Source of the DNA: Alteromonas mediterranea DE
Lineage (GTDB): Bacteria > Pseudomonadota > Gammaproteobacteria > Enterobacterales > Alteromonadaceae
DNA: 64,000 bases
Assembly: GCF_000020585.3 (NCBI RefSeq)
Contig: NC_011138.3
Coordinates: 3,227,195 to 3,291,194, forward strand
Direction: 5' to 3'
The position numbers and the translations under genes are program-made. Below the pieces are notes generated by a model. The model worked only from the letters and a program-made list of their open reading frames with translations. It was not told where the DNA came from and did no database searches. This document shows, piece by piece, positions 51,807-62,510 of this stretch (positions are counted from its first letter, which is position 1; each line of letters starts with the position of its first letter).

Positions 51807-51820
51807 GACGGATCTAGAAC

Positions 51821-51924: not shown

Positions 51925-51979
51925 ACTACTCCACCTCTTAAACCTAGTTAAATGAGCACTCAACCAAGGAGCGTGTACC

Positions 51980-52012
51980 ATGTAAATGAGCAACCCTAAC
52001 CCCAACATGTGA
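51980..52012 (+). other. Start-stop minigene with strong ribosome site
   Basis: AAGGAG is followed after 9 bases by ATG TAA (51980-51985) and, at once, by an eight-codon frame MSNPNPNM (51986-52012). Such minimal frames are known in lambda bar RNA, where they sequester tRNA; here it may be chance. Confidence 0.25.
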
Positions 52013-52210
52013 TCGTGACGTATCCCGCATAAGGCTTCGCGCAGGGATGAGTTCGGCTTGGCACACCGTTAACACACTAAGTTTGCCACTCAAACACACC
52101 ACCAGAACGCCTGAGAGCGCCTCACAGATCATTTCTACTAGTTAGCTAACCCATCGTACTGGGTTCTAGTTAGATGGCCCTGAGTCGCTTCTCACGCACG
52201 ATTTGAAAAG

Positions 52211-52441
52211 TGGCCAAATACGTGTCCAATTTCGAAAAAAAAGTTGGCCAGAGGCCTCTAAGCCACGTCCTGTAAGGGCTGTAGAGGAGTTATGTTAGTG
52301 GTTACTATCACCTCTAGGCTGCATTCCTTCGTTTTCACCAATTGGCCATTTTTCGCCCCCTACTATATATGTATTTTAAGGTTTTTACTCTTACTACTTA
52401 TTCAACAACTGAACTATATAAATAATAAGGATAATTGGCCA
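52211..52441. repeat. Dispersed TTGGCCA repeats
   Basis: The palindromic core TGGCCA occurs at 52211, 52245, 52343 and 52436, three of them as TTGGCCA, with a related ACCAATT at about 52480. The surrounding sequence is AT-rich. They may be binding sites of a replication or control protein. Confidence 0.45.
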
Positions 52442-52447
52442 ATATAA
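52292..52447 (+). CDS. Possible small hydrophobic protein
   Basis: 51 codons from ATG 52292 with GAGGAG six bases upstream. The peptide has one hydrophobic stretch (ILRFLLLLLIQQ). The ribosome site could pair with CCTCT 20 bases on. It overlaps the TGGCCA repeats, and I see no relative; it may be a chance frame. Confidence 0.3.
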   Translation: MLVVTITSRLHSFVFTNWPFFAPYYICILRFLLLLLIQQLNYINNKDNWPI

Positions 52448-52662
52448 AGAATAACTACTAACAATCAGTGACTTAACCTGACCAATTTTCAAAAACAAAA
52501 TGGACAACCGTGGTTTTTACCCCCTAAAACGTGGATTTGAAACCCCCAAAAAGGACGATTTTCTCTAATGCATTAATCGTGCCAACACAGTTTCCAGAAA
52601 AAACACCCCAATTTTTTAGGGGTAAAATTAATTTTTACTGTCAAAATTTTTTTGGATTTTGA

Positions 52663-52678
52663 ATGTAAACGTTTACAT
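52663..52678. promoter_or_regulatory. LacI-family-type palindrome
   Basis: ATGTAAACGTTTACAT is a perfect 16-bp palindrome with the central AACGTT typical of LacI/GalR/PurR-family operators. No such regulator gene is in the window, so a host protein is possible. Confidence 0.45.
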
Positions 52679-52693
52679 CGAGGGTCGAAAATT

Positions 52694-52810
52694 GCCCAAG
52701 TGCCATTTAGTGAACACCGCGACCACTTATTTTTGCGTGACTGGTCGTACCAATGTCATTCATCGCACTTGGCACGAGTAATGCATAACGCCTTTTTTCG
52801 CACTTGGCAC
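52694..52810. repeat. Iteron-like GCACTTGGCAC repeats
   Basis: CGCACTTGGCAC at 52764-52775 and 52799-52810 (period 35) and an inverted relative GCCCAAGTGCC at 52694-52704; GGCACTTTTTCAC at about 52820 is a partial copy. CTTTTTTCGCACT in front of the second copy recurs at the host junction (14710). Confidence 0.55.
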
Positions 52811-52899
52811 ACTCCATGCATGGCACTTTTTCACCTTTTTAATCGAAAAAGACGAACAAATAACCTTATTTGATTCGATTTTTCCGTCTTTACACTCTT

Positions 52900-52916
52900 T
52901 ATAATCAGTGGTTATA
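52900..52916. promoter_or_regulatory. Phage operator (TATAATCA-G-TGGTTATA)
   Basis: One mismatch from the palindrome. It lies 55 bases upstream of the first gene of the long early operon and probably controls entry into the microprotein array. Confidence 0.72.
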
Positions 52917-52971
52917 TCATCAAACCGCTGCGACCCAGAACCAAGAACCCAGATTCAAGGACCTAGAACCT

Positions 52972-53181
52972 ATGAGCGACTTAAAAGAATTCAAAATCGT
53001 TATCGAAGAAAGCGACACAGGACGACAACTAGTTTTACCTAACGTGATGGCCAGCGATTACTGCGTTGCAGAGGCGTACGGTAATCATGTCGCAGCATCC
53101 CTCCCCGTTTCTGAAATTGACCGACAGCAAGGTTTCGGCGTTAGCGAAACGTCATGGTCTTGCTGGCCCGAAGAAGTATAA
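52972..53181 (+). CDS. Small early protein
   Basis: 69 residues, unknown. Acidic N-terminus (SDLKEFKIVIEESDTGRQLV). I start at ATG 52972, just after the leader phrase AAGGACCTAGAACCT that also precedes the next gene. First gene after the operator at 52900. Confidence 0.65.
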   Translation: MSDLKEFKIVIEESDTGRQLVLPNVMASDYCVAEAYGNHVAASLPVSEIDRQQGFGVSETSWSCWPEEV

Positions 53182-53200
53182 ATTCAAGGACCTAGAACCT

Positions 53201-53416
53201 ATGGCAAAGGAACTCATTCTAAAACCCCACACTCGCTTGTTCCGTCAAGACCGCAAGTACTATGAACAGGTACAGTACCGCAACACATTCTGTAAAGATG
53301 TAGACGGACAGTGGTACTTCTGCTCACGAGACGGAGAACCGCAGGAAGCCGTTAATTTCACTATGATCGAGGATAAGCCTCGGTTTATTAAAGTATTGGA
53401 GCCCAGCGATGGATAA
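53201..53416 (+). CDS. Small early protein
   Basis: 71 residues, basic N-terminus and aromatic-rich middle (KYYEQVQYRNTFCKDVDGQW). Unknown. It is preceded by the same 15-base leader as the gene before it, AAGGACCTAGAACCT, which suggests duplication of a translation-start cassette. Confidence 0.65.
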   Translation: MAKELILKPHTRLFRQDRKYYEQVQYRNTFCKDVDGQWYFCSRDGEPQEAVNFTMIEDKPRFIKVLEPSDG

Positions 53417-53657
53417 GTATGCCGAAATACAGCAGCGCGTGAGAAAAGTCCGTGGCGTAGTACGAACTTACGAAACAGCAAGTGCTGACAGCCTACTAGA
53501 CGTCTCTTCATCGGTAAAAGACTCGACTATGCCTTACTACCATGAAATAGCGGCAGAAATAGAACGGCACCGCGAAGTAGTACTGGAAATACTACGCAAG
53601 CAGCTCAAGGCAGATCAAGCGCGGCTCAGTATTGTCGAGAAGATTTTAACTGAATAG
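53409..53657 (+). CDS. Small helical early protein
   Basis: 82 residues, predominantly charged helix (AAEIERHREVVLEILRKQLK). Starts 8 bases inside the previous gene. Unknown function. Confidence 0.65.
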   Translation: MDKYAEIQQRVRKVRGVVRTYETASADSLLDVSSSVKDSTMPYYHEIAAEIERHREVVLEILRKQLKADQARLSIVEKILTE

Positions 53658-53675
53658 CTAAAGGAAATTGAAATT

Positions 53676-54008
53676 ATGGCATTAACAGCATGGGCACAAG
53701 AAGCAAAAGCCAAGAGAGAGGCATGGTATAAAATTGAAAGGCTAGAAGCGCAACTAGCAAAGGCTAATGAGCGTATAGAAGAACTTGAGCATTACAATCT
53801 TAGATTAGCTAACGAGTCACACGCCAAAAGTCTTGAGATCGATAGCGCTAATAAATCAGTCATAGAGACTCACGTTAAAGCTTTACAGTCTTTGTTAAAT
53901 AAAAAATGTCCTGTTTCTGGTTACGTCATACGAGACAAAGAAAGCCGTGAAATCATTGTAGAAGAACTAGAACAGCTGCTAAAAGAACAATCGACCGATG
54001 TACGATAA
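53676..54008 (+). CDS. Coiled-coil early protein
   Basis: 110 residues, a long coiled coil (KIERLEAQLAKANERIEELE) followed by a short globular end (CPVSGYVIRDKESREIIVEE). AAGGA precedes the ATG. It is the last ordinary gene before the microgene array, whose first frame starts inside its final codons. Confidence 0.7.
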   Translation: MALTAWAQEAKAKREAWYKIERLEAQLAKANERIEELEHYNLRLANESHAKSLEIDSANKSVIETHVKALQSLLNKKCPVSGYVIRDKESREIIVEELEQLLKEQSTDVR

Positions 54009-54180
54009 CAGGCTACGCATACTTGTGCTCTACAGCTCCATAACTAACGGCAGAAACCACATCTATGTTATGGCGCCAGGCATGTGGAAAAACGGCCCTT
54101 TGTATAACCTCATCACCAACCTTGGTGCTAGAGAGACATGTGACGAAAACTATCCATCGGTAAGGACCCAGAACCTATGA
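53998..54180 (+). CDS. Array microprotein 1
   Basis: 60 residues. Strand RLRILVLYSS, helix box PLYNLITNLGARE, last strand region NYPSVR. Starts 11 bases inside the coiled-coil gene; its TGA overlaps the next ATG. Confidence 0.65.
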   Translation: MYDNRLRILVLYSSITNGRNHIYVMAPGMWKNGPLYNLITNLGARETCDENYPSVRTQNL

Positions 54181-54314
54181 TACTAGCCAAATGGGAATCT
54201 GAACGCATGATCCGATTATACGACCTACGACCCGGTACCCGGGCCCACGAATCACTGCGTAAAGTAGGCCTAAAAGCGACGGGATCGTTCGGCGTGCTAG
54301 GGGTTAGATATTAA
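54177..54314 (+). CDS. Array microprotein 2
   Basis: 45 residues, ATGA overlap with member 1. Helix box HESLRKVGLKATG, ending GVLGVRY. Preceded by AAGGACCCAGAACCT, a variant of the leader seen at 52955 and 53184. A partial operator-like TGATCCGATTATA lies inside it. Confidence 0.6.
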   Translation: MILAKWESERMIRLYDLRPGTRAHESLRKVGLKATGSFGVLGVRY

Positions 54315-54454
54315 TGATAAAACTCATACATTTTGACCAGCTATATGTGGTAGCAGCGACCGGTGTATCGGAAATACCACTAGAACCGTTGGTATATAAA
54401 CTAGGTATGAAGGACCACACCCTAGGAACTATGCCCAAGGTGAAGTACAGATGA
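54314..54454 (+). CDS. Array microprotein 3 (archetype)
   Basis: 46 residues and a clear model of the family: MIKLIHFDQLYVVAATG (two strands), PLEPLVYKLGMKDH (helix box), TMPKVKYR (last strand). One-base overlap (TAATG) with member 2. Confidence 0.7.
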   Translation: MIKLIHFDQLYVVAATGVSEIPLEPLVYKLGMKDHTLGTMPKVKYR

Positions 54455-54615
54455 TAAAGCTAAACACATGGAAGGCCGCAAAAAAAGTGTACGTATTAGG
54501 CGCTTCCATCCCCTCAAAAGTTAGGCCACTCTTACTTAAGGTAGGCTTTTGCGCTTCCACCACCAAGCACTGGCCGTCAATAGAATACGGAACTGCGTAT
54601 GCCAGCGGTCAATAA
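54451..54615 (+). CDS. Array microprotein 4
   Basis: 54 residues: MIKLNTWKAAKKVYVLGA, helix box VRPLLLKVGFCA, HWPSIEYGTAY, with a few extra C-terminal residues that overlap member 5 by 17 bases. ATGA overlap with member 3. Confidence 0.7.
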   Translation: MIKLNTWKAAKKVYVLGASIPSKVRPLLLKVGFCASTTKHWPSIEYGTAYASGQ

Positions 54616-54772
54616 AATAACGTTAGTGCATCATTACTCACTCAGTAAATTGCACGGTACCATCTAGATATTAGGTGGTAACCCTAAAAGTCATATTTTA
54701 GCTGCTATAGTACAGAAACTTGGAGCGAAACCGTCAAAGTACAGCCCGCCAAAAATAGAGTACGAACGATGA
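54599..54772 (+). pseudogene. Array member 5, interrupted by an in-frame TAG
   Basis: The frame opens with MPAVNKITLVHHYSLSKLHG, meets TAG at 54665-54667, and continues in phase through a full family core: HILAAIVQKLGAKPS and PPKIEYER to the TGA at 54772. Both halves match the family, so this is one gene broken by a nonsense change. TAG is a normal stop elsewhere in the array, so recoding is unlikely. Confidence 0.65.
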
Positions 54773-54924
54773 TAATAATAAAAATTGGATCTCTAAACAA
54801 AGTCCTTGTTTCCGCTAAGCGCCTTAATGATGACATAAACGCAATCTTAATTAAACTCGGCATGCGCCAAGAGACCCCGTACCGAATACCTACGATCCTC
54901 TATTCGGTGCCTGCGTTTCGATAG
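54769..54924 (+). CDS. Array microprotein 6
   Basis: 51 residues: MIIIKIGSLNKVLVSAKR, helix box INAILIKLGMRQ, RIPTILYSVP. ATGA overlap with the broken member 5; ends in TAG. Confidence 0.68.
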   Translation: MIIIKIGSLNKVLVSAKRLNDDINAILIKLGMRQETPYRIPTILYSVPAFR

Positions 54925-54934
54925 CGGATTCATT

Positions 54935-55078
54935 ATGTTTAAGATCAAAATACTCCATTTCAAAGATAAAAAAAACGTGTTTGCATTGGCACAAGGACAT
55001 GTTCCCTTAAAACAAATTCTAATAAAAATAGGTATGAATATACCTCATGCTGGCGCATTACCAAAGGTTTACTACTAA
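54935..55078 (+). CDS. Array microprotein 7
   Basis: 47 residues: MFKIKILHFKDKKNVFALAQ, LKQILIKIGMNI, ALPKVYY. One of few members with a gap (10 bases) before it. Nearest relatives appear to be members 8 and 9, which share the PKVYY/PRVYH ending. Confidence 0.68.
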   Translation: MFKIKILHFKDKKNVFALAQGHVPLKQILIKIGMNIPHAGALPKVYY

Positions 55079-55221
55079 TGTATGGCTTTAAATTAAGACA
55101 TTGGAAACGTAGCAAAAAGATATCCGTAATGTCTCATCAGGACATAAAGCTAAAAGTTGTGTTACTAAAAATAGGGGTGGATGTGCCCACCCCCTTTTCG
55201 CACCCAAAGGTTTACTACTAA
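55078..55221 (+). CDS. Array microprotein 8
   Basis: 47 residues, same length as member 7 and ending in the same HPKVYY; MYGFKLRHWKRSKKISVM, LKVVLLKIGVDV. One-base overlap. Probably a recent duplicate of member 7. Confidence 0.68.
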   Translation: MYGFKLRHWKRSKKISVMSHQDIKLKVVLLKIGVDVPTPFSHPKVYY

Positions 55222-55382
55222 TGATAAAACTCCAAATCCGTAAATTCACTATTGCCATGGCTTTATATGTAAATGCAGGTAAGTCCCATCCAGCACACCA
55301 TGTTTTGGTTAAGTTAGGCGCAGAGTTACCCGACGGACATAAAATACCGAGGGTCTACCACCAAAGGATCTACTACCAATGA
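55221..55382 (+). CDS. Array microprotein 9
   Basis: 53 residues: MIKLQIRKFTIAMALYVNAG, AHHVLVKLGAEL, KIPRVYHQRIYYQ; the ending looks like a duplicated VYxxR(I)YY. One-base overlap before it, 4-base overlap after it. Confidence 0.68.
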   Translation: MIKLQIRKFTIAMALYVNAGKSHPAHHVLVKLGAELPDGHKIPRVYHQRIYYQ

Positions 55383-55675
55383 ACACGTCCCAGATTCGCC
55401 CAGTTATTAACAAAAACGGCCTAGGATATAGAACCTATGTTCTAGTACGTGACAGCTTTTTTACCGGCAAAAAATACCGTCTTATAACATGGATACGCAG
55501 CAAAGAAACCAAGCGTATCGATGTCACTGAATGCGTAAGTTTTAGGCACGCAGACTTCCCTGTGGTCACCGAAAAGTTTGATGACATCACAGTATCGGCC
55601 ACAATCGAAGAAGCGGTATCAAACATCCGTAAAGTCTATGGCACTAGCGATGACATAGAAGAGTGGCAGCCCTAA
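55379..55675 (+). CDS. Non-family 98-residue protein inside the array
   Basis: 98 residues with strands VLVRDSFFTGKKYRLITWIR and a C-terminal helix (ATIEEAVSNIRKVYG). It lacks the K-L-G box, although the helix is similar in place; it may be an enlarged relative or an inserted gene. Overlaps both neighbours (4 and 1 bases). Confidence 0.65.
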   Translation: MNTSQIRPVINKNGLGYRTYVLVRDSFFTGKKYRLITWIRSKETKRIDVTECVSFRHADFPVVTEKFDDITVSATIEEAVSNIRKVYGTSDDIEEWQP

Positions 55676-55842
55676 TGGGAAAAATAGAAATAGAAAAAAT
55701 GCCGCCACACATCAGTGTACAAGCGAATCTAGAAGTGGCTGTCAGTGCATCACTAAGTGCTGCGCTAAGAATAATAGAGCAATTAGATAGTAGCGCGAAG
55801 TACGAGGAATCTTGCGACTGGATATTATTTGAGTATGAGTGA
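55675..55842 (+). CDS. Array microprotein 11
   Basis: 55 residues, divergent: GKIEIEKMPPHISVQANL, helix LSAALRIIEQLDSS, ending WILFEYE. The helix and final aromatic strand keep the family order. Confidence 0.6.
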   Translation: MGKIEIEKMPPHISVQANLEVAVSASLSAALRIIEQLDSSAKYEESCDWILFEYE

Positions 55843-56008
55843 CAAACAGCCACTGGAAATCTGGGAAGGACTCAATAACAAAATACTAGTTTCCACAACC
55901 CTCGACTTCGACCCAGTACACAAGATACTAGAAAAACTCGGCCTAGAACCTGAGACCCACAACCGATGGCCAGCGATAGCCCCTTATTTTGATAAGCGGA
56001 GAAAATGA
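55835..56008 (+). CDS. Array microprotein 12
   Basis: 57 residues: strand ILVSTTLDF, helix box VHKILEKLGLEPETHN, RWPAIAPYF. Eight-base overlap with member 11. Confidence 0.65.
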   Translation: MSDKQPLEIWEGLNNKILVSTTLDFDPVHKILEKLGLEPETHNRWPAIAPYFDKRRK

Positions 56009-56196
56009 GATTATTGATAAGGTATTCCAGAACACACGGCATGGCCACACTAACCACAGGTCCGGTGCACATGATGGCAAATAACCCCGAGCTTTTTAGC
56101 CTAGTAGGTAGACTTGCAGGCGGAATATTCGCCGCGTCTATAGTGCCTTTTGGAGCGGTTATATACATAGAGAAAAAATATGATTGGAATGTATAG
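56005..56196 (+). CDS. Array microprotein 13
   Basis: 63 residues and unusually hydrophobic (LFSLVGRLAGGIFAASIVPF). It may form a membrane segment and so may have departed from the family role. ATGA overlap with member 12. Confidence 0.58.
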   Translation: MRLLIRYSRTHGMATLTTGPVHMMANNPELFSLVGRLAGGIFAASIVPFGAVIYIEKKYDWNV

Positions 56197-56329
56197 ACAT
56201 TGGAATGAGATAGAGTTTGTTACCCCTGACGAATACTCCTCCGTCAACAAGCTGCTAACTAGAATCTTTGATCTGAATCCTGAAACTGAGGATTCTTGGC
56301 CATCGATCAAAGTGCAGGAAGGACGATGA
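56180..56329 (+). CDS. Array microprotein 14
   Basis: 49 residues: MIGMYRHWNEIEFVTPDE, VNKLLTRIFDLNPETED, SWPSIKVQ. Resembles member 12 in the NPETxxxWP stretch. Overlaps member 13 by 17 bases. Confidence 0.65.
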   Translation: MIGMYRHWNEIEFVTPDEYSSVNKLLTRIFDLNPETEDSWPSIKVQEGR

Positions 56330-56469
56330 GAATACAAAACTACCCTGATGCCAAGATTATTTACCTGACTTATGTACCTTTTGCCATAGCTCCTGTGTTC
56401 AGAAAAATACTCAACAAGACATGGCTATATAGGTTCGACACTGAGAGTGTCTTTTCAGCGAGATACTAA
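56326..56469 (+). CDS. Array microprotein 15
   Basis: 47 residues: MRIQNYPDAKIIYLTYVP, helix VFRKILNKTW; the box after the helix is lost. AAGGACG precedes the ATG. Confidence 0.58.
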   Translation: MRIQNYPDAKIIYLTYVPFAIAPVFRKILNKTWLYRFDTESVFSARY

Positions 56470-56597
56470 TGAAAATAATAGTCTTCGAAAAATTCATAGC
56501 CGTAAGCGTATTTGGCGCTCCTAGTACCATAAAAAAGCTTTCGAAAGACCTAGTACATTTCAACAACCGGTACATGGCCATAGTGATATGGAAATAA
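56469..56597 (+). CDS. Array microprotein 16
   Basis: 42 residues, the shortest member: MKIIVFEKFIAVSVFGAP, TIKKLSKDLVHF, RYMAIVIWK. One-base overlap before it and 10 bases with the next. Confidence 0.58.
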   Translation: MKIIVFEKFIAVSVFGAPSTIKKLSKDLVHFNNRYMAIVIWK

Positions 56598-56737
56598 AGC
56601 TCCATAGGGGACTGTCCTTGTACCTGTATATACCGGACGAGGCAGAGAACAAATCTCTGATATATAGCATTTTTTACAAACTCGGCGCTGAAGACCACGT
56701 AGGCGCGGTGCCGAAAATTACTTTGGATAACCCATGA
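56588..56737 (+). CDS. Array microprotein 17
   Basis: 49 residues: MEIKLHRGLSLYLYIPD, LIYSIFYKLGAEDHVG, AVPKITLD. A well-preserved member, very like member 3 in the KLGxxDHxxxxxPK stretch. Confidence 0.68.
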   Translation: MEIKLHRGLSLYLYIPDEAENKSLIYSIFYKLGAEDHVGAVPKITLDNP

Positions 56738-56877
56738 GTAACGGCAAGTTTCGTATTATAAAAGGAATGTCAGCCACTTTCGTTTTTCTAGCGGGCGACT
56801 CTCACCAAAGCCTTGCCGCTATTTTTCATAAACTCGGATCGAATAGCACATACATAGTAGTGATACACCATGACTGA
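56734..56877 (+). CDS. Array microprotein 18
   Basis: 47 residues: GKFRIIKGMSATFVFLAGD, SLAAIFHKLGSNST, YIVVIHHD. ATGA overlap with member 17. Confidence 0.65.
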   Translation: MSNGKFRIIKGMSATFVFLAGDSHQSLAAIFHKLGSNSTYIVVIHHD

Positions 56878-57052
56878 AACTTTCAAACTAGATATCGTAT
56901 TGGGCACAAACTGGATTCGCATAGGTACAGAAGCCCCTGGAGGCGCTACACACGCGATAGAGTATTTAATTAAATCTCTATCTCCTAGCATAATTGAAGG
57001 CCCTCATTTGAGGGATGCGCTACTAATAAAAAATGTCGATGAAGAAGATTAA
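56870..57052 (+). CDS. Array microprotein 19
   Basis: 60 residues: FKLDIVLGTNWIRIGTEA, AIEYLIKSLSPSIIE, then an extended acidic tail (IKNVDEED). Overlaps member 20 by 20 bases. Confidence 0.63.
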   Translation: MTETFKLDIVLGTNWIRIGTEAPGGATHAIEYLIKSLSPSIIEGPHLRDALLIKNVDEED

Positions 57053-57206
57053 AATAACTAAAGAAAGATACGGAACTTCAATACAAGCACTCAAAAATGT
57101 TTCGGATTTTTGCCTAGAAACAGAGCTTATTATATACAAGCTGTGTGAGAATTCGTCTTGTAGTAGACCTAACGAAGTCACAATCTTAAGGGTTGACCAT
57201 GGCTAG
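57033..57206 (+). CDS. Array microprotein 20
   Basis: 57 residues: MKKIKITKERYGTSIQ, ETELIIYKLCENSSC, EVTILRVDHG. This and members 21, 22, 28 and 29 have C where others have G after K-L, forming a local K-L-C subgroup. Confidence 0.63.
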   Translation: MSMKKIKITKERYGTSIQALKNVSDFCLETELIIYKLCENSSCSRPNEVTILRVDHG

Positions 57207-57390
57207 CCTTCAAGTCCAGATTATTAAATTCGAAATAGATGTTAGCATCGTCGCGTGGGACGAAAAAGGAGATATAAACCTCAATGTAGAACGTTTGATA
57301 CACAAACTATGCATTAATTTATCCACCACGACGCCCGATAAAGATAACATGTTGAACATTGTTTATGACTCGCAAAATATCAATTCTTAA
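57199..57390 (+). CDS. Array microprotein 21
   Basis: 63 residues from ATG 57199: LQVQIIKFEIDVSIVAWDE, VERLIHKLCINLSTT, MLNIVYDS. Close to member 22 (IERLIYSLC). Overlaps it by 26 bases. Confidence 0.65.
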   Translation: MASLQVQIIKFEIDVSIVAWDEKGDINLNVERLIHKLCINLSTTTPDKDNMLNIVYDSQNINS

Positions 57391-57556
57391 AAGAGGATCA
57401 AGCCGAGTAATAATAGAAGCCTCGTACGGAGACGACATCGCTTTAGAAATAGAGCGTCTCATATACTCGCTTTGTAAACGCTCAGCTTTAGGTGAACCGA
57501 CCGAACTATACCCAGTAAGATTACATGCAAATACTTTATCTTTACCCGAAAACTGA
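57365..57556 (+). CDS. Array microprotein 22
   Basis: 63 residues from ATG 57365: KISILKRGSSRVIIEASYGD, IERLIYSLCKRSALGEPTE, LYPVRL. Its last 32 bases also encode the start of member 23, the longest overlap in the array. Confidence 0.65.
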   Translation: MTRKISILKRGSSRVIIEASYGDDIALEIERLIYSLCKRSALGEPTELYPVRLHANTLSLPEN

Positions 57557-57683
57557 TGGCGTGGCATTGTTACCAGATACTCGGCTCTGCGACCCAGAAC
57601 GAAGGGCCTTGGATACAGTAATCAAAAAAATGTTTAAAAACGCAGTAGTGATAGGAACACTATGGTACATAGTGTCAAAATAG
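57525..57683 (+). CDS. Array microprotein 23
   Basis: 52 residues: MQILYLYPKTDGVALLPD, helix ALDTVIKKMFKNAV, GTLWYIVSK. Contains a coding copy of the GACCCAGAACG word found in several leaders. Confidence 0.58.
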   Translation: MQILYLYPKTDGVALLPDTRLCDPERRALDTVIKKMFKNAVVIGTLWYIVSK

Positions 57684-57829
57684 TGAGAACCCGCCCTACC
57701 CGAGTTTCCAAAACACGGTTGGTACGAGTAGGCATAAGAGAAATATATGACTCTCCTATCAACCGTATAATAGAAAAACTAGGTCCTAAAATAGAAGACA
57801 GAGGGAGGCCACGAATATGGGTAAACTAA
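57662..57829 (+). CDS. Array microprotein 24
   Basis: 55 residues: MVHSVKIVRTRPTR, strand TRLVRVGIREIYD, helix box INRIIEKLGPKIED, RPRIWVN. Overlaps its neighbours by 22 and 13 bases. Confidence 0.65.
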   Translation: MVHSVKIVRTRPTRVSKTRLVRVGIREIYDSPINRIIEKLGPKIEDRGRPRIWVN

Positions 57830-57981
57830 CGTTATACAAGTACGATGACGATTTACTAATCTTTGAACTAGAAGTGGAAAGCGGACAAACAATCCCTGCG
57901 GAATGGTTAATCCATAAGATCGCCCCGCACACTGTTCTTATACCCACGATCCGCAATTCCCCAAGAGTGATACTAAAATGA
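57817..57981 (+). CDS. Array microprotein 25
   Basis: 54 residues: MGKLTLYKYDDDLLIFELEV, IPAEWLIHKIAPHT, LIPTIRNSPRVILK. The box is K-I-A. ATGA overlap with member 26. Confidence 0.63.
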   Translation: MGKLTLYKYDDDLLIFELEVESGQTIPAEWLIHKIAPHTVLIPTIRNSPRVILK

Positions 57982-58244
57982 TCAAGCTTTTTAGTTATGA
58001 AGGTACTGTTGAGTTTGCCTCTGACGCAGGCGTAAACACAGACGAAACCCAACCCAACTACGCTTTTTTAATAGCGTTTTCTACTGACGAAGATATCTAC
58101 GGCAACCACACCACGCGCCTAGATATCGAATACAAACGCACAAATGCTCTTATAACTAAGTTACATGGAAAACAACTTGAATGCGGAGAGTGCAGCACCA
58201 ACCTCGGTGAAATCTGTAAAGTTAAGAAACGATCACAATGGTAA
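57978..58244 (+). CDS. Array protein 26 (enlarged member)
   Basis: 88 residues: MIKLFSYEGTVEFASDAGVN, a longer acidic insert, then RTNALITKLHGKQLECGECS with two close cysteines. The helix box is recognisable but the final strand is replaced by a basic tail (KVKKRSQW). Confidence 0.63.
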   Translation: MIKLFSYEGTVEFASDAGVNTDETQPNYAFLIAFSTDEDIYGNHTTRLDIEYKRTNALITKLHGKQLECGECSTNLGEICKVKKRSQW

Positions 58245-58390
58245 AAGTGACTAAAAACACGTGCAAGGTCCAAGTTAAAACAACCAAGAACCTAGGACCT
58301 ATAGCTATGATTTTGTACCAAATAGCAGGGAAACGTAATTACCTTGTAGCCAACGGTGTTGTTTTTCACAATCGAAACGGCCGGTACTAA
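58238..58390 (+). CDS. Array microprotein 27
   Basis: 50 residues: MVKVTKNTCKVQVKTTKNLG, AMILYQIAGKRN, VVFHNRNGRY. It carries a coding copy of the CCTAGGACCTA word. Last member before the internal operator gap. Confidence 0.6.
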   Translation: MVKVTKNTCKVQVKTTKNLGPIAMILYQIAGKRNYLVANGVVFHNRNGRY

Positions 58391-58414
58391 TCGTTTTTTC
58401 TCGTTGGAACCAAT

Positions 58415-58431
58415 TATAATCAAAGGTTATA
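58415..58431. promoter_or_regulatory. Phage operator inside the array (TATAATCA-A-AGGTTATA)
   Basis: Same 17 bases as the terS operator. It occupies the only sizeable gap of the array, 9 bases before member 28, and so divides the array into two units of about 27 and 16 genes. Confidence 0.7.
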
Positions 58432-58440
58432 TTCAAGCCC

Positions 58441-58617
58441 ATGAAACCTAAATTAATAATATTACTTTGTGAACGCCAAGTAGCATTTAAGGTAAGGGAA
58501 ACCTTATCTAACATACACCCCGTAGAGTTTCTGGTACATAAATTGACGGGTAAAACAATATACGGCCGCCCTCAATACAATAGACACGGTACGATAGACA
58601 TAAGCCATGAACGATAA
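58441..58617 (+). CDS. Array microprotein 28
   Basis: 58 residues: MKPKLIILLCERQVAFKVRE, HPVEFLVHKLTGKTIYG, GTIDISHE. First gene after the internal operator; no clear Shine-Dalgarno between operator and ATG (TTCAAGCCC). Confidence 0.63.
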   Translation: MKPKLIILLCERQVAFKVRETLSNIHPVEFLVHKLTGKTIYGRPQYNRHGTIDISHER

Positions 58618-58783
58618 AAACAAACTTGCTTTGTGTATGTTAAGTGGACGCGCATTACTCTTCAAAATCCGCGATGAATACAGTCCTGTTACAGATGTAG
58701 AAAATTTAATATATAGATTATGCACTGGACATTTACGCAGCCGACCTACAAAACAAAAACACGGGATGCTGGATATTAAATAA
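58607..58783 (+). CDS. Array microprotein 29
   Basis: 58 residues, equal in length to member 28: KNKLALCMLSGRALLFKIRD, VENLIYRLCTGHLRSRP, GMLDIK. Overlaps member 28 by 11 bases; likely its sister. Confidence 0.63.
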   Translation: MNDKNKLALCMLSGRALLFKIRDEYSPVTDVENLIYRLCTGHLRSRPTKQKHGMLDIK

Positions 58784-58784
58784 C

Positions 58785-58994
58785 ATGTTTAAGTTACATA
58801 TTAAAAATTATACTTGGTACATAACCATTTACACTAATTCAGGACCCGACTCTTTATCAAAAGTCCCTGAATCAGAACTCATCGTTTTTAAAATAGCCCC
58901 CAAAGGTATGGTGTCAGTACCTACGTCAAAAAAAGTAATGAAAATATTTGACTCAAAAGAAAAATACGACATGTACGCCGAAGCAAGGAAATGA
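58785..58994 (+). CDS. Array microprotein 30
   Basis: 69 residues: MFKLHIKNYTWYITIYTNSG, ESELIVFKIAPKGMVSVP, then a lysine-rich tail (KKVMKIFDSKEKYDMYAEAR). Core FKIAPxG like member 25. Confidence 0.63.
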   Translation: MFKLHIKNYTWYITIYTNSGPDSLSKVPESELIVFKIAPKGMVSVPTSKKVMKIFDSKEKYDMYAEARK

Positions 58995-59149
58995 GAGACA
59001 AATTACAAATACTGCGTTGGATACAAAGCACGACTTACGTACTTAAACGCCCGTATGGTAGCAAAATGCCAGAAAACCTACGGAAAGTGCTCCTGAAACT
59101 GGACCGCACGTCACTTCTAAGCTACGACGGAGTAACCTATGCCGAATAA
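58991..59149 (+). CDS. Array microprotein 31
   Basis: 52 residues: KLQILRWIQSTTYVLKRPYG, NLRKVLLKLDRTSLL, GVTYAE. ATGA overlap before it; 11-base overlap after it. Confidence 0.63.
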   Translation: MRDKLQILRWIQSTTYVLKRPYGSKMPENLRKVLLKLDRTSLLSYDGVTYAE

Positions 59150-59306
59150 CATTGAGATAGCCTACTCAAAATACGATTGTGTTTTTTTCGTTTGCCCCGC
59201 ACCTTACGGTGCAGTTAATAAAGTCCTTGATAAACTTGTCGCATGCTGCGCCAAGGGTAACGTAGAAAACAACCGCTCGTGGCCAGAAATAGGGCTAATA
59301 CTATAA
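59139..59306 (+). CDS. Array microprotein 32
   Basis: 55 residues: NNIEIAYSKYDCVFFVCPAP, VNKVLDKLVACCAKGN, SWPEIGLIL. Cysteine-rich for its size (five). Confidence 0.65.
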   Translation: MPNNIEIAYSKYDCVFFVCPAPYGAVNKVLDKLVACCAKGNVENNRSWPEIGLIL

Positions 59307-59488
59307 TGAACAACAGCATAGAGATAATCGCTTTTACACGTAGAGTAATAACTATCAGCGTAAATGAATACTGGCACCCAGTGAATCATGTTATTGGAAG
59401 ATTACTGGAAAACACTAAAAAAGGCTCCACTGAAACTGCAACAGCTTGGCCCCAAATAAGAACAGACAAGGACAAATCGCATGTGTAA
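59306..59488 (+). CDS. Array microprotein 33
   Basis: 60 residues: SIEIIAFTRRVITISVNE, VNHVIGRLLENTKKGS, AWPQIRTDK. Its NSIEI / VN / WP pattern makes it the sister of member 32. One-base overlap. Confidence 0.65.
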   Translation: MNNSIEIIAFTRRVITISVNEYWHPVNHVIGRLLENTKKGSTETATAWPQIRTDKDKSHV

Positions 59489-59678
59489 AAAAGAGACAGT
59501 GTTCAGAAACTACAACACCTGGTGGGCCTATATGCTAATGACCCAGAACCTAGGACAAAGTTTCTCCCGTCACATAATGACGGACCAAGGACCCAGAAAA
59601 CAGGTCTTTGCAAAACTTCCTGACGGCGAGGTCGTAGGTCATTGGACCCCCGCAGAATCTATTGGGTACTGTTACTAA
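59481..59678 (+). CDS. Array microprotein 34 (atypical)
   Basis: 65 residues, Trp/Tyr-rich (NYNTWWAYMLMTQNLGQSFS), then KQVFAKLPDGEVVGHW. The order is unlike the family; it also carries coding copies of the ACCCAGAACCTAGGAC word. Possibly a foreign or strongly rearranged member. Confidence 0.58.
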   Translation: MCKKETVFRNYNTWWAYMLMTQNLGQSFSRHIMTDQGPRKQVFAKLPDGEVVGHWTPAESIGYCY

Positions 59679-59836
59679 TGCAGATAATAATAGATGCCAC
59701 AGGCGGTACAATAGACATAGATGTAATAGACCAATCACTTTCTCTAGTAATCAATAAACTTGTCCCGCTAGGTACTACCCATTTTAAGTGGGACCGATGT
59801 TCATATTGTAACCGCATTCTAAAAAAGGCCGAGTAA
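59678..59836 (+). CDS. Array microprotein 35
   Basis: 52 residues: MQIIIDATGGTIDIDVIDQ, LSLVINKLVPLGTTH, then CSYCNRILKKAE, a CxxC pair at the end. It includes the word TIDIDV, reminiscent of the N-P-V-D-I box of the following subgroup. Confidence 0.6.
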   Translation: MQIIIDATGGTIDIDVIDQSLSLVINKLVPLGTTHFKWDRCSYCNRILKKAE

Positions 59837-59837
59837 A

Positions 59838-60005
59838 ATGATTACATTAGAGTTACTCGATAGTCCTCAAAACCCTGTTGACATTAACTTTTTTGAAGCA
59901 AGCCAAAAAGAATGCCACATCGTATCGTCACTTTTATTGAAACTGTCTTCAGAACTTAGAAGAGAGCACCCCAATATATATTATGTGGAGTATTACCAAG
60001 AATGA
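59838..60005 (+). CDS. Array microprotein 36 (NPVDI subgroup)
   Basis: 55 residues: MITLELLDSPQNPVDINFFE, helix box VSSLLLKLSSELRRE, NIYYVEYYQE. First of the block sharing N-P-(V/I)-D-I after the first strand and K-L-S after the helix. Confidence 0.7.
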   Translation: MITLELLDSPQNPVDINFFEASQKECHIVSSLLLKLSSELRREHPNIYYVEYYQE

Positions 60006-60178
60006 TAGAACTGTTCAGAGTCGGTAACAGGAACGGGAATAACCCCATAGACATAGCTTACGGGAATTCTGGTACTGGAATACGTAACCAAAAAGTAGCC
60101 GCTGTATTCAAGAAACTGTCTTCTAAATTATCTGTATATACAACCTTTGCGGTCTATCGACATGATAAAAATAATTAA
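60002..60178 (+). CDS. Array microprotein 37 (NPVDI subgroup)
   Basis: 58 residues: MIELFRVGNRNGNNPIDIAY, VAAVFKKLSSKLSVYT, FAVYR. ATGA overlap with member 36; 17-base overlap with member 38. Confidence 0.7.
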   Translation: MIELFRVGNRNGNNPIDIAYGNSGTGIRNQKVAAVFKKLSSKLSVYTTFAVYRHDKNN

Positions 60179-60320
60179 ATTCAACAATACAAAAAACCCA
60201 GTGGACATAAACTTTTATGGTGGCACAGCGGCCGACTCAACTGTTTTAATGGAAATACTAAGACAACTAAGTTATGAGATGTACGTTTCACACGAATTTG
60301 CGGAATATTACACAGAATGA
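60162..60320 (+). CDS. Array microprotein 38 (NPVDI subgroup)
   Basis: 52 residues: MIKIIKFNNTKNPVDINFYG, VLMEILRQLSYEMYVS, EFAEYYTE. The NPVDINF box is identical to that of member 36. Confidence 0.72.
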   Translation: MIKIIKFNNTKNPVDINFYGGTAADSTVLMEILRQLSYEMYVSHEFAEYYTE

Positions 60321-60469
60321 TTGAATTAATCCGACACTTTCATGAATCAAACCCAGTAGATATCAGCCACATGGATGGCGGATACTCAATATCAAATATA
60401 CTTGCTAAGTTAACCCCAGGCATGTTTTGCCATAAGCATTACTCTGAGTACTTTTGCCATGAACGATGA
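60317..60469 (+). CDS. Array microprotein 39 (NPVDI subgroup)
   Basis: 50 residues: MIELIRHFHESNPVDISHMD, SISNILAKLTPGMFCH, HYSEYFCHER. ATGA overlap before it; overlaps the next by 11 bases. Confidence 0.7.
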   Translation: MIELIRHFHESNPVDISHMDGGYSISNILAKLTPGMFCHKHYSEYFCHER

Positions 60470-60635
60470 AGTAATTGAAATCGTACGGTATAAAAGCATA
60501 ACTAAAAACCCCGTAGATATATTTTTTGACGGTAAAAGAAACGAAGAGTTATCCGCTATATTCAAAAAGCTGTCTACCGACATGTATGCTTTTACGAACA
60601 ACTCGATGGAGTACATAATATGGCCTCTCGAATGA
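60459..60635 (+). CDS. Array microprotein 40 (NPVDI subgroup)
   Basis: 58 residues: EVIEIVRYKSITKNPVDIFF, ELSAIFKKLSTDMYAF, SMEYIIWPLE. Very close to member 41 in the NPVDIFF and KKLS stretches. Confidence 0.72.
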   Translation: MNDEVIEIVRYKSITKNPVDIFFDGKRNEELSAIFKKLSTDMYAFTNNSMEYIIWPLE

Positions 60636-60787
60636 TCGAAATAATAAAAAACGAAGAGACGATTCGCCACAACCCTGTAGATATTTTTTTCGTTGGAGAG
60701 CAACACGAAAAGTTAAGAACTACCCTCAAAAAACTATCTCAGAATCTAGGTATATTCGGGAGCCACTTAATCGAGTACATAAGATGA
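60632..60787 (+). CDS. Array microprotein 41 (NPVDI subgroup)
   Basis: 51 residues: MIEIIKNEETIRHNPVDIFF, LRTTLKKLSQNLGIFG, HLIEYIR. ATGA overlaps on both sides. Confidence 0.72.
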   Translation: MIEIIKNEETIRHNPVDIFFVGEQHEKLRTTLKKLSQNLGIFGSHLIEYIR

Positions 60788-60969
60788 TTCGGGTAGTATA
60801 TTTCCCCGAGAGAACAAATTCGAATGTGCTAGACATAGATCATTTCGATGAAGCCTCTATCACAGGACCTATAATCCAGAAACTAGGGCCTTCGAACTTA
60901 GAAATGTCTGGTACAGGTAATTATACGGAGTACTGGGATCATGAAAATCCTACTTCTCAGGATGGCTAA
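60784..60969 (+). CDS. Array microprotein 42 (bridging member)
   Basis: 61 residues: MIRVVYFPERTNSNVLDIDH has the D-I of the NPVDI block, while TGPIIQKLGPSNLE has the K-L-G of the main family, ending NYTEYW. It links the two subgroups and supports common origin. Confidence 0.7.
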   Translation: MIRVVYFPERTNSNVLDIDHFDEASITGPIIQKLGPSNLEMSGTGNYTEYWDHENPTSQDG

Positions 60970-61090
60970 CCGAAATCCCATAGACATCATTACAGATCCT
61001 TCTGTTCATGACGTCATAATATCCATAGCTTCAATCAATAAAACAAAATCTATAAGTAACATGAAAACCTATATTGAGTGTTACCTATAA
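60941..61090 (+). CDS. Array microprotein 43 (last, degenerate)
   Basis: 49 residues: MKILLLRMANRNPIDIITD keeps the box, but the helix (VHDVIISIASINKT) has lost K-L-S; ends TYIECYL. Starts 29 bases inside member 42. An operator follows 23 bases after its stop. Confidence 0.65.
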   Translation: MKILLLRMANRNPIDIITDPSVHDVIISIASINKTKSISNMKTYIECYL

Positions 61091-61112
61091 CTAAAAGTTA
61101 TTTAACAAACTT

Positions 61113-61129
61113 TATAATCTCTGATTATA
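61113..61129. promoter_or_regulatory. Phage operator (TATAATCT-C-TGATTATA)
   Basis: One mismatch in the left half. It lies between the array and the final operon, 36 bases before the start of the 76-residue gene. Confidence 0.72.
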
Positions 61130-61165
61130 TAAACAACCTTACCCCGTCATTCTAAGGAGACGACA

Positions 61166-61396
61166 ATGTCAGCAATTGAAAAACGCGAAGTAGAAATCAC
61201 AGAAGAAGAACGCAAGTTACTCAACGAACACGGTGCTACGTTAACCGACACCGAAGACGAGTGGCGCGCGCTCACCGCGATGATGCACAACATCACTTTT
61301 GAAGATTTGGGCAACATCATTCTTGCTAACCCAGCCGAAGGCGAACCCCTTGGCATTTTCTTTAAAGAAACAGACAAGGGCCTTACATTGGATTAA
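61166..61396 (+). CDS. Small acidic early protein
   Basis: 76 residues, acidic and helical (KREVEITEEERKLLNEHGAT). Strong AAGGAG ribosome site. Unknown function; no array signature. Confidence 0.72.
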   Translation: MSAIEKREVEITEEERKLLNEHGATLTDTEDEWRALTAMMHNITFEDLGNIILANPAEGEPLGIFFKETDKGLTLD

Positions 61397-61399
61397 TCC

Positions 61400-61633
61400 A
61401 TGCCGTTGTTAAGCAAACTCGTACGGCATCTGTTGTTTACCTTAACTGCAGATGTCGTACGTAACCCCGAAAAGTATTCCTATCACGCTAAGCGCGCTTA
61501 CAGCTCAGCAGTATGTAAAGCTCGAAATGCTAAGGAGAAGATCAGAAATGAAATGGAACGAATTAAAAAATCTCGCCAAAAACAAGCTAGACCAAGCGAT
61601 ACTAAAAGTAGCTCCTTGGGTGATAGCGAGTAG
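61400..61633 (+). CDS. Small basic protein
   Basis: 77 residues, strongly basic with helices (NAKEKIRNEMERIKKSRQKQ). Starts 3 bases after the previous stop. Its last 86 bases overlap the next gene in another frame. Confidence 0.6.
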   Translation: MPLLSKLVRHLLFTLTADVVRNPEKYSYHAKRAYSSAVCKARNAKEKIRNEMERIKKSRQKQARPSDTKSSSLGDSE

Positions 61634-61730
61634 TGGCTTAGCCATAGGGATTTTTTGGCTTGCTCCTGTCTTCGCCATGCTATGCATAGGTTTTGGTATC
61701 GGAGTATGGGTATGCAACAAAAAACCATGA
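61548..61730 (+). CDS. Small membrane protein overlapping the previous gene
   Basis: 60 residues from ATG 61548, which has TAAGGAG at the right distance. A charged helix (WNELKNLAKNKLDQAILKVA) is followed by hydrophobic segments (VIASSGLAIGIFWLAPVFAM). I reject the longer frame from 61452, which lacks a ribosome site. Confidence 0.68.
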   Translation: MKWNELKNLAKNKLDQAILKVAPWVIASSGLAIGIFWLAPVFAMLCIGFGIGVWVCNKKP

Positions 61731-61906
61731 CATTCCCCAACCACAACGAGTGGCTCGCGGCGGTAGCGTTCTTCGGTCTTTACTATGATAAAGACGAAAC
61801 CAACGAATACCCTACAGACGTTGCTCGTAATCCCCATAACGGGGAATGTTTCGGTGTTTATGACACAGAAACGGACCACAACTATTTGTGGATAGGAGAG
61901 CACTAG
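61712..61906 (+). CDS. Small protein with N-E-W-L-A-A motif
   Basis: 64 residues from ATG 61712 with GGAG upstream; ATG 61727 is an alternative. NHNEWLAAVAFFGLYYDKDE then a Tyr/His-rich end. It resembles the next product (DTWLAAAEMFGYKVV), so the two are probably paralogues. Confidence 0.65.
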   Translation: MQQKTMTFPNHNEWLAAVAFFGLYYDKDETNEYPTDVARNPHNGECFGVYDTETDHNYLWIGEH

Positions 61907-62127
61907 TGCGCAGCAAACACACCGTGAAATACGATTCGTTAGATACATGGTTAGCTGCAGCAGAGATGTTCGGGTACAAGGTGGTAAAAATGTCTCGCGG
62001 TCGCGCTGCTTATCGTAAAGCAGTAACCAGAAATGGCCATCGTAGAGACGTTATGTGCGGCTCGTACTCAATAACGACTAACCCTTTCACCCAAAAAGTC
62101 ACTGAAACTAATTGGCTAGAAGTATAA
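61906..62127 (+). CDS. Paralogue of the preceding WLAA protein
   Basis: 73 residues from GTG 61906, sharing one base with the previous TAG and with AGGAG upstream. SLDTWLAAAEMFGYKVVKMS then a basic middle (RKAVTRNGHRR). Its stop TAA lies within the next operator. Confidence 0.65.
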   Translation: MRSKHTVKYDSLDTWLAAAEMFGYKVVKMSRGRAAYRKAVTRNGHRRDVMCGSYSITTNPFTQKVTETNWLEV

Positions 62128-62139
62128 TCAGGAGTTATA
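62123..62139. promoter_or_regulatory. Operator fused with a ribosome site (TATAATCA-G-GAGTTATA)
   Basis: Consensus left half, altered right half. The central AGGAG is also the Shine-Dalgarno of the gene at 62141, and its first bases contain the stop of the previous gene. The change from palindrome may reflect this double use. Confidence 0.5.
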
Positions 62140-62140
62140 T

Positions 62141-62353
62141 ATGCCCCGTGATACTGAAAAAGAAACTCCTTGCGAAACGGAAGAGCAATTCCGTGGCGCT
62201 GTGGAAGTTATCCATTCTAAACCAGGCAAGGACATACATATCGTCGAAGACGGTGAGTTCTACCTGTTCGCGTTCGATCATGAGAGAAACAAGATCGGAT
62301 TTTTCAATAAATCAACTAGTGCAGGATATGTAAAGGATGCCACGAGTAATTGA
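62141..62353 (+). CDS. Small early protein
   Basis: 70 residues, beta-rich (HIVEDGEFYLFAFDHERNKI) after an acidic N-terminus. Unknown. Ribosome site lies in the operator. Confidence 0.68.
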   Translation: MPRDTEKETPCETEEQFRGAVEVIHSKPGKDIHIVEDGEFYLFAFDHERNKIGFFNKSTSAGYVKDATSN

Positions 62354-62510
62354 CCTGTATGTAGGTTTCATCGTGCTTATCCCTTTACTTGCCGGGCTCA
62401 GTTTATTCAACCCGTTGTATTGGCTCTGGGTGCTTGTAGCTTATATGAAGTACCGCAAAGCCGTTAATTTAAACGCTTATTTAATTTCTCAATTAAGGAA
62501 ACAAAAATGA
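62337..62510 (+). CDS. Small membrane protein
   Basis: 57 residues with two hydrophobic stretches (YVGFIVLIPLLAGLSLF and YWLWVLVAYM) and a basic tail. Starts 17 bases inside the previous gene; its TGA overlaps the ATPase ATG. Confidence 0.65.
   Translation: MPRVIDLYVGFIVLIPLLAGLSLFNPLYWLWVLVAYMKYRKAVNLNAYLISQLRKQK

Follow-up and report, generated by a model that had tools for sequence, protein, structure and literature searches.

The 64,000-nt stretch of Alteromonas mediterranea DE analysed here (the window; contig NC_011138.3, positions 3,227,195 to 3,291,194) contains a 63,250-bp prophage, with a 56-bp att repeat, whose integration site is the 6S RNA gene. It encodes a tyrosine integrase and a helix-turn-helix repressor and, judged by integrase, repressor and att repeats, is a complete temperate prophage. 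Within it, positions 53998-61090 of the plus strand hold an array of 43 callable short frames, designated m01-m43. An earlier note on this DNA had reported about 43 frames with these coordinates and this strand, which is right, and had assigned them to a phage operon; the genes are in fact part of an integrated prophage. The array follows a stretch of about 1.2 kb that lacks a long plus-strand gene (51763-52971; the longest ORF wholly within it encodes 73 aa from a TTG start), has a terminator-like hairpin at 51763-51792, and is probably the control region, with a putative promoter, of the rightward operon. The array is at a distance from the virion genes and ahead of the replication genes, on the same strand as a MoxR-type AAA ATPase (62507-63511, plus strand; downstream, where it is the first of the replication segment's large genes), a VWA-like protein, a family A DNA polymerase, a VapE-like protein and an SNF2 helicase. 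The terminase gene, 4.4 kb from the array, carries a LAGLIDADG match.

The frames encode 31-98 aa (42-65 aa in 39 of the 43) and cover 6928 of 7093 bases. Junctions overlap almost universally, as had been claimed (38 of 42): by 1 nt (TAATG) at 7, by 4 nt (ATGA) at 11 and by 7-35 nt at 20, the remaining four being gaps of 1, 1, 10 and 153 nt. Plus-strand ORFs of at least 40 aa number 42, compared with a mean of 11.7 and a maximum of 21 in 300 Markov simulations, which likewise gave a mean ORF coverage of 0.25 and a maximum of 0.45 against 0.97 in the array. The 153-nt gap contains a remnant of the family, a decayed copy (54616-54769, plus strand) in which an in-frame TAG lies upstream of a C-terminal half matching the common profile described below (54668-54769, E 2.3e-4). 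The calculated pI of the 43 products ranges from 4.3 to 11.7, so their surfaces differ.

Kinship among the members is above chance. Among 45 proteins (m00-m44), 75 ordered pairs reach E<0.01, compared with 0.6 per shuffled set. The 43 array frames give 40 unordered pairs at this threshold, and 28 remain (42 frames, m27 dropped) after 8 residues are trimmed off both ends; untrimmed controls gave 2 pairs (43 of 45 minus-strand ORFs) and 0 or 1 (43 ORFs drawn ten times from the 105 others in the prophage). The pairwise links at E<0.01 involve 28 members, which fall into three sets (13, 9 and 6) with no link from one to another. A common profile matches 26 of the 43 frames at E<0.01, hereafter core members (24 of them its training set, with m17 and m23 outside it), as well as the stop-broken remnant, and matches nothing outside the array. 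When core members were left out one at a time, 19 of the 26 scored above every one of 200 shuffles and 5 were reached by 1-2 shuffles; the weakest, m21 and m26, were reached by 10 and 12 of 200. Leaving out whole subclusters still gave p<0.05 for 13 of 24 members, which favours one family across subclusters, and hhalign between subclusters gave P 3e-5 for A-B, with weak links for A-D (P 8e-4 over 21 columns), A-C (P 0.009) and B-D, B-C and C-D (P 0.01-0.04). Seven further frames reach only shuffle p<0.05 (probable members), and 10 of the 43 are not assignable to the family. The earlier description of the frames as mostly one family holds for the 26 on one profile; across subclusters the leave-out results favour it, but the subcluster links besides A-B are weak.

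Identity among the 26 core members averages 19% and reaches 42% in the closest paralogues. Pairs at E<0.001 (n=22) lie a mean of 4.4 places apart compared with 14.7 after permutation (0 of 10000 as low); neighbours are therefore most alike, which fits the prediction of tandem duplication. From sequence comparison, the array is likely a paralogous family that arose by tandem duplication of one gene. Duplication followed by diversification, as the earlier note had proposed, is supported by the pair, profile, leave-cluster-out and neighbour-similarity results, the members exceeding the shuffled sequences that it had set as the yardstick. Recent, accordion-like gene amplification was considered and rejected: the 20 of 24 repeat families listed include no near-identical tandem DNA copies, their longest direct repeat measuring 30 nt with 73% identity, and the closest core paralogues are 42% identical.

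Subcluster A (all frames are on the plus strand, and subcluster members are placed by the profile) comprises m03 (54314-54454, 46 aa), m04 (54451-54615, 54 aa), m05 (54769-54924, 51 aa), m06 (54935-55078, 47 aa; relative P0022, 91%), m07 (55078-55221, 47 aa), m08 (55221-55382, 53 aa; P0003, 92%) and m16 (56588-56737, 49 aa; P0023, 88%). Subcluster B contains m11 (55835-56008, 57 aa), m13 (56180-56329, 49 aa; P0010, 84%), m32 (59139-59306, 55 aa; P0005, 93%, and P0009, 76%) and m33 (59306-59488, 60 aa). Subcluster C contains m19 (57033-57206, 57 aa), m20 (57199-57390, 63 aa), m21 (57365-57556, 63 aa), m26 (58238-58390, 50 aa), m28 (58441-58617, 58 aa) and m29 (58607-58783, 58 aa). Subcluster D contains m36 (59838-60005, 55 aa, with the motif NPVDI; P0014, 89%), m37 (60002-60178, 58 aa), m38 (60162-60320, 52 aa), m39 (60317-60469, 50 aa; P0013, 78%), m40 (60459-60635, 58 aa), m41 (60620-60787, 55 aa; P0017, 84%) and m42 (60784-60969, 61 aa; P0016, 98%, and P0019, 72%). 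The core members outside the training set are m17 (56734-56877, 47 aa, E 1.8e-5) and m23 (57662-57829, 55 aa, E 0.0026).

Probable members are m01 (53998-54180, 60 aa, p 0.002 with the all-cluster profile), m14 (56326-56469, 47 aa, p 0.024), m24 (57817-57981, 54 aa, p 0.048), m25 (57978-58244, 88 aa, p 0.003, its match split into two weak pieces), m31 (58991-59149, 52 aa, p 0.002), m43 (60941-61090, 49 aa, p 0.016, with the motif NPIDI) and m27 (58356-58451, 31 aa, p 0.049), a doubtful frame with a GTG start. The profile did not place m02 (54177-54314, 45 aa), m15 (56469-56597, 42 aa; a single pairwise link, to m40) or m30 (58785-58994, 69 aa; a weak pairwise link to m08). Neither leave-one-out nor the all-cluster profile placed m09 (55379-55675, 98 aa), m12 (56005-56196, 63 aa) or m22 (57525-57683, 52 aa) in the family, to which m10 (55675-55842, 55 aa, p 0.079), m18 (56870-57052, 60 aa, p 0.063), m35 (59678-59836, 52 aa, p 0.077) and m34 (59481-59678, 65 aa), which contains a divergent 13-bp leader sequence copy, are also not assigned.

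Related proteins are found in the database (24 in number), none with a source-given name. Twelve of these differ from the window sequence; each of their units shares 56-98% identity with a single array position, the next reaching no more than 42%. In relative P0024, an m02-like and an m04-like unit are fused, m03 being absent from between them, and copy number consequently differs between relatives. Two genomes whose portals are 41-44% identical showed no such array in the 20 kb beside the portal, indicating that the array is not needed by that phage type. The distribution of the family is narrow in the genomes searched.

Predicted models of m03 (from all rows) and m40 (from the subcluster D rows plus m43 only) have the same order, strand-strand-helix-strand. 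This agrees with the order read by eye in the earlier note, and the structural differences between members that would have spoken against kinship do not appear in these two. Confidence in the models is moderate (mean pLDDT 69.7 and 71.9, pTM 0.40 and 0.45), and at this confidence neither gave a significant fold match among solved structures. The ancestral domain was likely about 50 residues long, with a predicted strand-strand-helix-strand fold.

Sites resembling ribosome-binding sites lie inside the preceding gene at 41 of 44 starts. The mean duplex energy is -3.7 at the 44 starts versus -1.3 at 100 other ATGs, and values of -4 or below occur at 15 of the 44 starts versus 10 of the 100 other ATGs and 13.9% of all positions. 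In several members the codons of the C-terminal motif fall on the Shine-Dalgarno sequence of the next gene (PKV on AAAGG; V/M/T-E-Y on GGAGT). Because the ribosome-binding sites sit inside preceding genes, part of the P-x-V-x-Y ending is the Shine-Dalgarno of the gene that follows, and the P-x-(I/V)-x-Y noted earlier as a shared feature of the products is not purely a protein motif.

No array member clearly matches a named protein family, and consequently nothing ties the family to a target. Pfam and PHROGs at E<=0.1 matched none of 28 members; the remaining 15 gave one Pfam match (DUF7454, E 0.05) and one PHROG match (E 0.032), each to a single member. NCBIfam and PADLOC matched none of the 28, although the silence of PADLOC says little, since it lists defence rather than anti-defence proteins. 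Among the families represented in Pfam and PHROGs (43 members searched) and NCBIfam (28), no significant homology to named anti-CRISPRs, including the AcrID1 type, was found.

The reading that we favour, with a probability of roughly 0.45, is that the products are diversified small binders made early, each of which likely blocks a host target of its own, possibly part of a defence. A domain of about 50 residues would have been duplicated in tandem and diverged into the array; a single co-translated message, with translation presumably coupled along its length, would release dozens of variants of one small scaffold early after induction or infection; each variant may bind a different host protein, perhaps of a defence; and strains would acquire, fuse, break or drop copies as the host repertoire shifts. 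It is possible, if doubtful, that such coexpressed scaffold variants constitute a viral “binder library”, a counter-defence cassette with modular gain and loss that would be of a new kind in phages.

Both host-defence inhibitors and subunits of a mixed complex had been offered earlier as guesses, and we rank the former above the latter. If the members were subunits of a single hetero-oligomeric assembly acting early in infection, likely a ring, filament or coat, they would share one fold while differing in edges and charges, and a coupled message would supply them in near-equal amounts. Such a role is consistent with the strand-strand-helix-strand order predicted in both models, the tight gene overlap and the conservation of single-position identity between relatives. 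However, a fixed assembly should tolerate poorly the absence of m03 and fusion of its neighbours in P0024, or the broken copy found here; the distance from the virion genes and the lack of a significant fold match for the moderate-confidence models also make this role unlikely. A near-neutral or selfish expansion of a duplication-prone stretch, in which few copies matter, could account for the decayed copy, the 10 frames without detectable family sequence and the narrow distribution in the genomes searched. We regard it, too, as improbable, given that 43 frames have been kept open despite 19% average core identity, that the ribosome-binding-like sites are retained and that single positions are 56-98% conserved in relatives. 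The position of the array beside replication genes and the probable control region could suggest that the small proteins regulate or modulate replication or the lysis-lysogeny decision of the phage itself and not host targets, but control of that kind does not call for dozens of divergent copies, and with no match to a DNA-binding family in Pfam or PHROGs (43) or NCBIfam (28) we consider this distinctly unlikely. That the frames are mostly untranslated, their similarity reflecting repeated Shine-Dalgarno and start-context signals, as the coincidence of motif codons with the next Shine-Dalgarno and the fall from 40 to 28 linked pairs on trimming might hint, is hardly credible beside those 28 pairs at E<0.01 (0-2 in untrimmed controls), the protein-level conservation in relatives and tiling far beyond simulation.

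If translated, the array would represent an unusually dense gene-family expansion for a phage, with at least 26 related genes, each about 50 codons long, packed into 7 kb. Its products would then offer natural variants of one small fold with which host targets could be sought. They would also allow a direct test of whether phages keep paralogue arrays as standing counter-defence repertoires, as has been suggested for some archaeal and eukaryotic viruses. The family also marks a blind spot in annotation, having no curated profile and 24 database proteins without source-given names.

Precedents for parts of this arrangement exist. Early anti-defence genes of archaeal rudiviruses, including AcrID1 and its relatives, have paralogues (PMC11065993, PMC7689449), also within one archaeal viral genome (PMC11065993). 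The rudiviral proteins resemble the array products in being small, early and divergent viral proteins (early expression being presumed for the array), whereas the array has at least 26 members in one overlapping series in a bacterial phage and no significant Pfam match among its 43 frames. In phage T6, the homing endonuclease SegB is reported to drive segmental amplification of anti-defence loci (PMC13096335). There, tandem copy-number change of phage genes, the point of likeness, is an answer to host defence; the T6 repeats, however, are recent expansions, whereas the array consists of divergent paralogues and yielded no long DNA repeat. The multigene families of African swine fever virus are also tandem sets of divergent paralogues that vary in number between strains and act in host interaction, but their proteins are much larger, the host is a eukaryote, and their genes are not known to overlap or to be translationally coupled. 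By portal sequence, KPP25-like podoviruses and Acidovorax phage AP1 are 38.6-40.1% identical to the prophage. No array of genes of about 50 codons is annotated in the 39.9 of 64.1 kb and 41.7 of 55.7 kb covered; in KPP25, as in the prophage, a small-gene region is divergent from the terminase-portal block.

The 43 plus-strand frames called between positions 53998 and 61090 (m01–m43, 31–98 aa) bear out the tandem array of about 43 overlapping short plus-strand genes described in the earlier note. The junctions overlap in 38 of 42 cases (single-base TAATG overlaps at seven, four-base ATGA overlaps at 11 and overlaps of 7–35 bases at 20), and the frames cover 6928 of the 7093 bases. Start codons were chosen by us, and m27 is a doubtful frame. 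Chance open reading frames (ORFs) can be rejected as the source of the array, given that the stretch has 42 plus-strand ORFs of at least 40 aa and a coverage of 0.97, whereas 300 first-order Markov simulations averaged 11.7 such ORFs, never exceeding 21, and reached a coverage of 0.45 at most. The minus strand of this stretch, with 30 ORFs of at least 40 aa and a coverage of 0.65, also lies above the simulations, an excess that we put down to the antisense of codon-structured DNA; these ORFs have almost no mutual similarity.

Predicted anti-Shine-Dalgarno energies, calculated with what we take to be the 16S end, average −3.7 kcal/mol over 44 starts (m01–m44) versus −1.3 at 100 other ATGs of the array, and are −4 or lower at 15 of the 44 starts, 10 of the 100 other ATGs and 13.9% of all positions. 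For 41 of the 44 starts the ribosome-binding site lies within the preceding frame, where AAAGG underlies PKV codons and GGAGT underlies V/M/T-E-Y codons; hence the C-terminal “PKVYY”/“VEYY” motif is partly the ribosome-binding site of the next gene. The P-x-(I/V)-x-Y ending proposed as a shared product motif is therefore rejected as a pure protein signature.

The claim that most products belong to one diversified family is supported by all-against-all comparison of 45 proteins (m00–m44), in which 75 ordered pairs reach E<0.01 versus 0.6 per shuffled set. At this threshold, 40 unordered pairs among the 43 frames link 28 members, which form three separate groups of 13, 9 and 6, and 28 pairs are still found after removal of eight residues from each end (42 proteins, m27 dropped). 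As controls, 43 of the 45 minus-strand ORFs gave two pairs, and when 43 ORFs were drawn ten times from the 105 other small ones of the prophage, each draw gave 0 or 1. A common profile, with 24 array members and 10 relatives as its building set, was scanned against 2443 stop-to-stop segments in all six frames of the window. It matched 26 called frames, referred to here as core members, and one remnant at E<0.01, with no match below E 0.5 outside the array; m17, m23 and the remnant, a copy at 54616–54769 decayed by an in-frame TAG stop, were absent from the building set. Seven more frames pass a shuffle test alone at uncorrected p<0.05 (21 tested: 19 array frames, m00 and m44), and 10 of the 43 have no assignment to the family. 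With leave-one-out profiles (29 seeds picked by eye, 200 shuffles each), 19 of the 26 core members scored above all shuffles and five were matched by one or two, while m21 was reached by 10 and m26 by 12; of the non-core seeds, m24 passes, and m02 (23/200) and m30 (57/200) fail.

Of the core members, 24 fall into four subclusters, A–D. When each was left out and scored by the other three, 6/7 (A), 2/4 (B), 2/6 (C) and 3/7 (D) of the members reached p<0.05; values combined over members assume an independence that the members do not have. Profile-profile comparison related A to B (P 3e-5, probability 73%) and, more weakly, A to D (P 8e-4, 25%, over 21 columns); P was 0.009 for A-C and 0.01–0.04 for B-D, B-C and C-D. 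These sequence comparisons therefore make a single ancestor of all four subclusters likely, short of proof. Similarity is biased toward neighbors: the 22 pairs at E<0.001 are separated by a mean of 4.4 places versus 14.7 in permutations, and eight are adjacent versus 1.0. Judged from the sequences, this is the pattern that tandem duplication leaves. Recent amplification was rejected as the origin of the array.

The proposed strand-strand-helix-strand order finds support in two predicted models, which agree in their order of elements at moderate confidence. The m03 model, from a 28-row alignment, has strands at 2–7 and 10–15, a helix at 24–29 and a strand at 42–44 (mean pLDDT 69.7, pTM 0.40). 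The m40 model, whose eight input rows comprised subcluster D and m43 alone, with no row from A, B or C, has strands at 6–10 and 19–23, a helix at 28–38 and strands at 42–46 and 49–52 (mean pLDDT 71.9, pTM 0.45). Fold searches of PDB and BFVD with these models gave no significant match; AFV1-102 and RNA polymerase subunit L were among the weak hits and were given no weight. Pfam, PHROGs, NCBIfam, PADLOC and PDB sequences yielded no usable match for array members, and it appears from these libraries that no curated family covers them.

Of the 24 proteins recovered by three protein searches, 12 are proteins of the window itself (one from a later start). Going by the longest contig reported for each, the 12 that differ lie on contigs, inferred to be one per length, of 44417 (six proteins), 37820 (four), 1246 and 1162 bases. 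Every unit in them shares 56–98% identity with a single array position and no more than 42% with the next best. One of these relatives, the 100-aa P0024, joins an m02-like unit to an m04-like unit with m03 absent between them, representing a copy-number difference plus a fusion, the latter of which might also be the product of a frameshift in sequencing. Change between relatives per fifth of the protein (13 pairs) is 0.22, 0.16, 0.17, 0.17 and 0.15; a concentration of change in mid-protein, as the m04/P0024 pair alone appears to have, was accordingly rejected.

As for such arrays elsewhere, when the window and 124 loci were scanned for chains of short frames, chains longer than seven turned up nowhere but in the window and in loci cut from it; the value for the window is 16, the array being broken by the length and spacing limits set. 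At the DNA level no relative was matched in phages (megablast) or plasmids (blastn), array proteins A3 and A6 had no relative in IMG/VR or in genomes of the species, and the MoxR ATPase and the gene at 51010 had none in IMG/VR. Across 58 further genomes from the genus, array profile A1 had no match, and across 393 others from the order it had only four weak ones (E 5e-4 to 0.008), which we take as chance: three lie inside frames of 274–1091 aa and one crosses three stops. In 245 other genomes of the family, profile A10 gave one weak match (E 0.004) and profile A11 none. Profile A1 was also without a match in the records, often fragmentary, for 27 of the 80 virus loci that carry the portal; an empty result of this kind is uninformative on its own. 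In two genomes with 41–44% identical portals, the 20 kb beside the portal holds no comparable run of short frames.

The genome is a single contig of 4,480,937 bases, of which the window spans bases 3227195–3291194. The array lies in a 63,250-bp element bounded by an exact 56-bp att repeat, at window positions 14577–14632 and at 15022–15077 of L002, the locus with the second copy. The left copy falls inside the 6S RNA gene (Rfam RF00013, 14452–14634), which is the integration site of the prophage and still matches the whole Rfam model at this end. The element encodes a helix-turn-helix repressor (15613–16260), a portal protein with 38.6–40.1% identity to those of KPP25 and Acidovorax phage AP1, a large terminase (46895–49642, minus strand) with an intein-like insertion matching LAGLIDADG_3, and a tyrosine integrase at its right end. 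Together with the att repeat, these genes mark the element as a temperate phage in its integrated state, podovirus-like in its structural genes, rather than a free phage record. The structural block also includes a 2149-aa protein (30083–36532, minus strand) without a Pfam match.

Upstream of the array lie 1.2 kb in which there is no long gene (the longest ORF contained entirely within them has 73 aa) and then four short genes; downstream, on the same strand, are genes for a MoxR ATPase, a VWA-like protein, a family A polymerase, a VapE-like protein and an SNF2 helicase. Given the long-gene-free stretch before it and the replication genes after it, the array is probably transcribed early.

We favor, at a probability of roughly 45%, a diversified set of small early binders directed against host targets, perhaps defenses. 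The members would be small binders on one predicted scaffold, each with a different host target. A common predicted scaffold, the lack of an enzyme family, varied charge (calculated pI 4.3–11.7), identities kept separate across relatives and changing number together fit such a set. Host defenses are a well-known reason for diverse early viral proteins, and by analogy this could extend to the array. PMC11065993 makes the case that the early genes of archaeal viruses are, for the most part, likely to be anti-defense genes, and it also reports uncharacterized Acr paralogues within one genome. Less probable, and about level with each other, are the readings that the members are subunits of a hetero-oligomer and that the array is a near-neutral expansion. 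Viral multigene families enlarged by tandem duplication are of a known kind. The size class, density and overlap of this multigene array appear new for a bacterial phage, and no account of such an array was found among the titles and abstract openings listed for open-licence papers.

Promoter-like sites are not in excess (20 versus 25.4 in shuffles), and an Rfam scan of 50000–64000 gave no match. A leader, AAGGACC(T/C)AGAACCTATG, occurs at 52957–52974, 53186–53203 and 54162–54179, where it contains the starts at 52972, 53201 and 54177; nowhere else in the genome does it match exactly. It resembles start-associated sequences of some mycobacteriophages. Reading by eye, we also noted repeated TTGGCCA and GCACTTGGCAC words at 52180–52860, which are possibly operators of the rightward operon.
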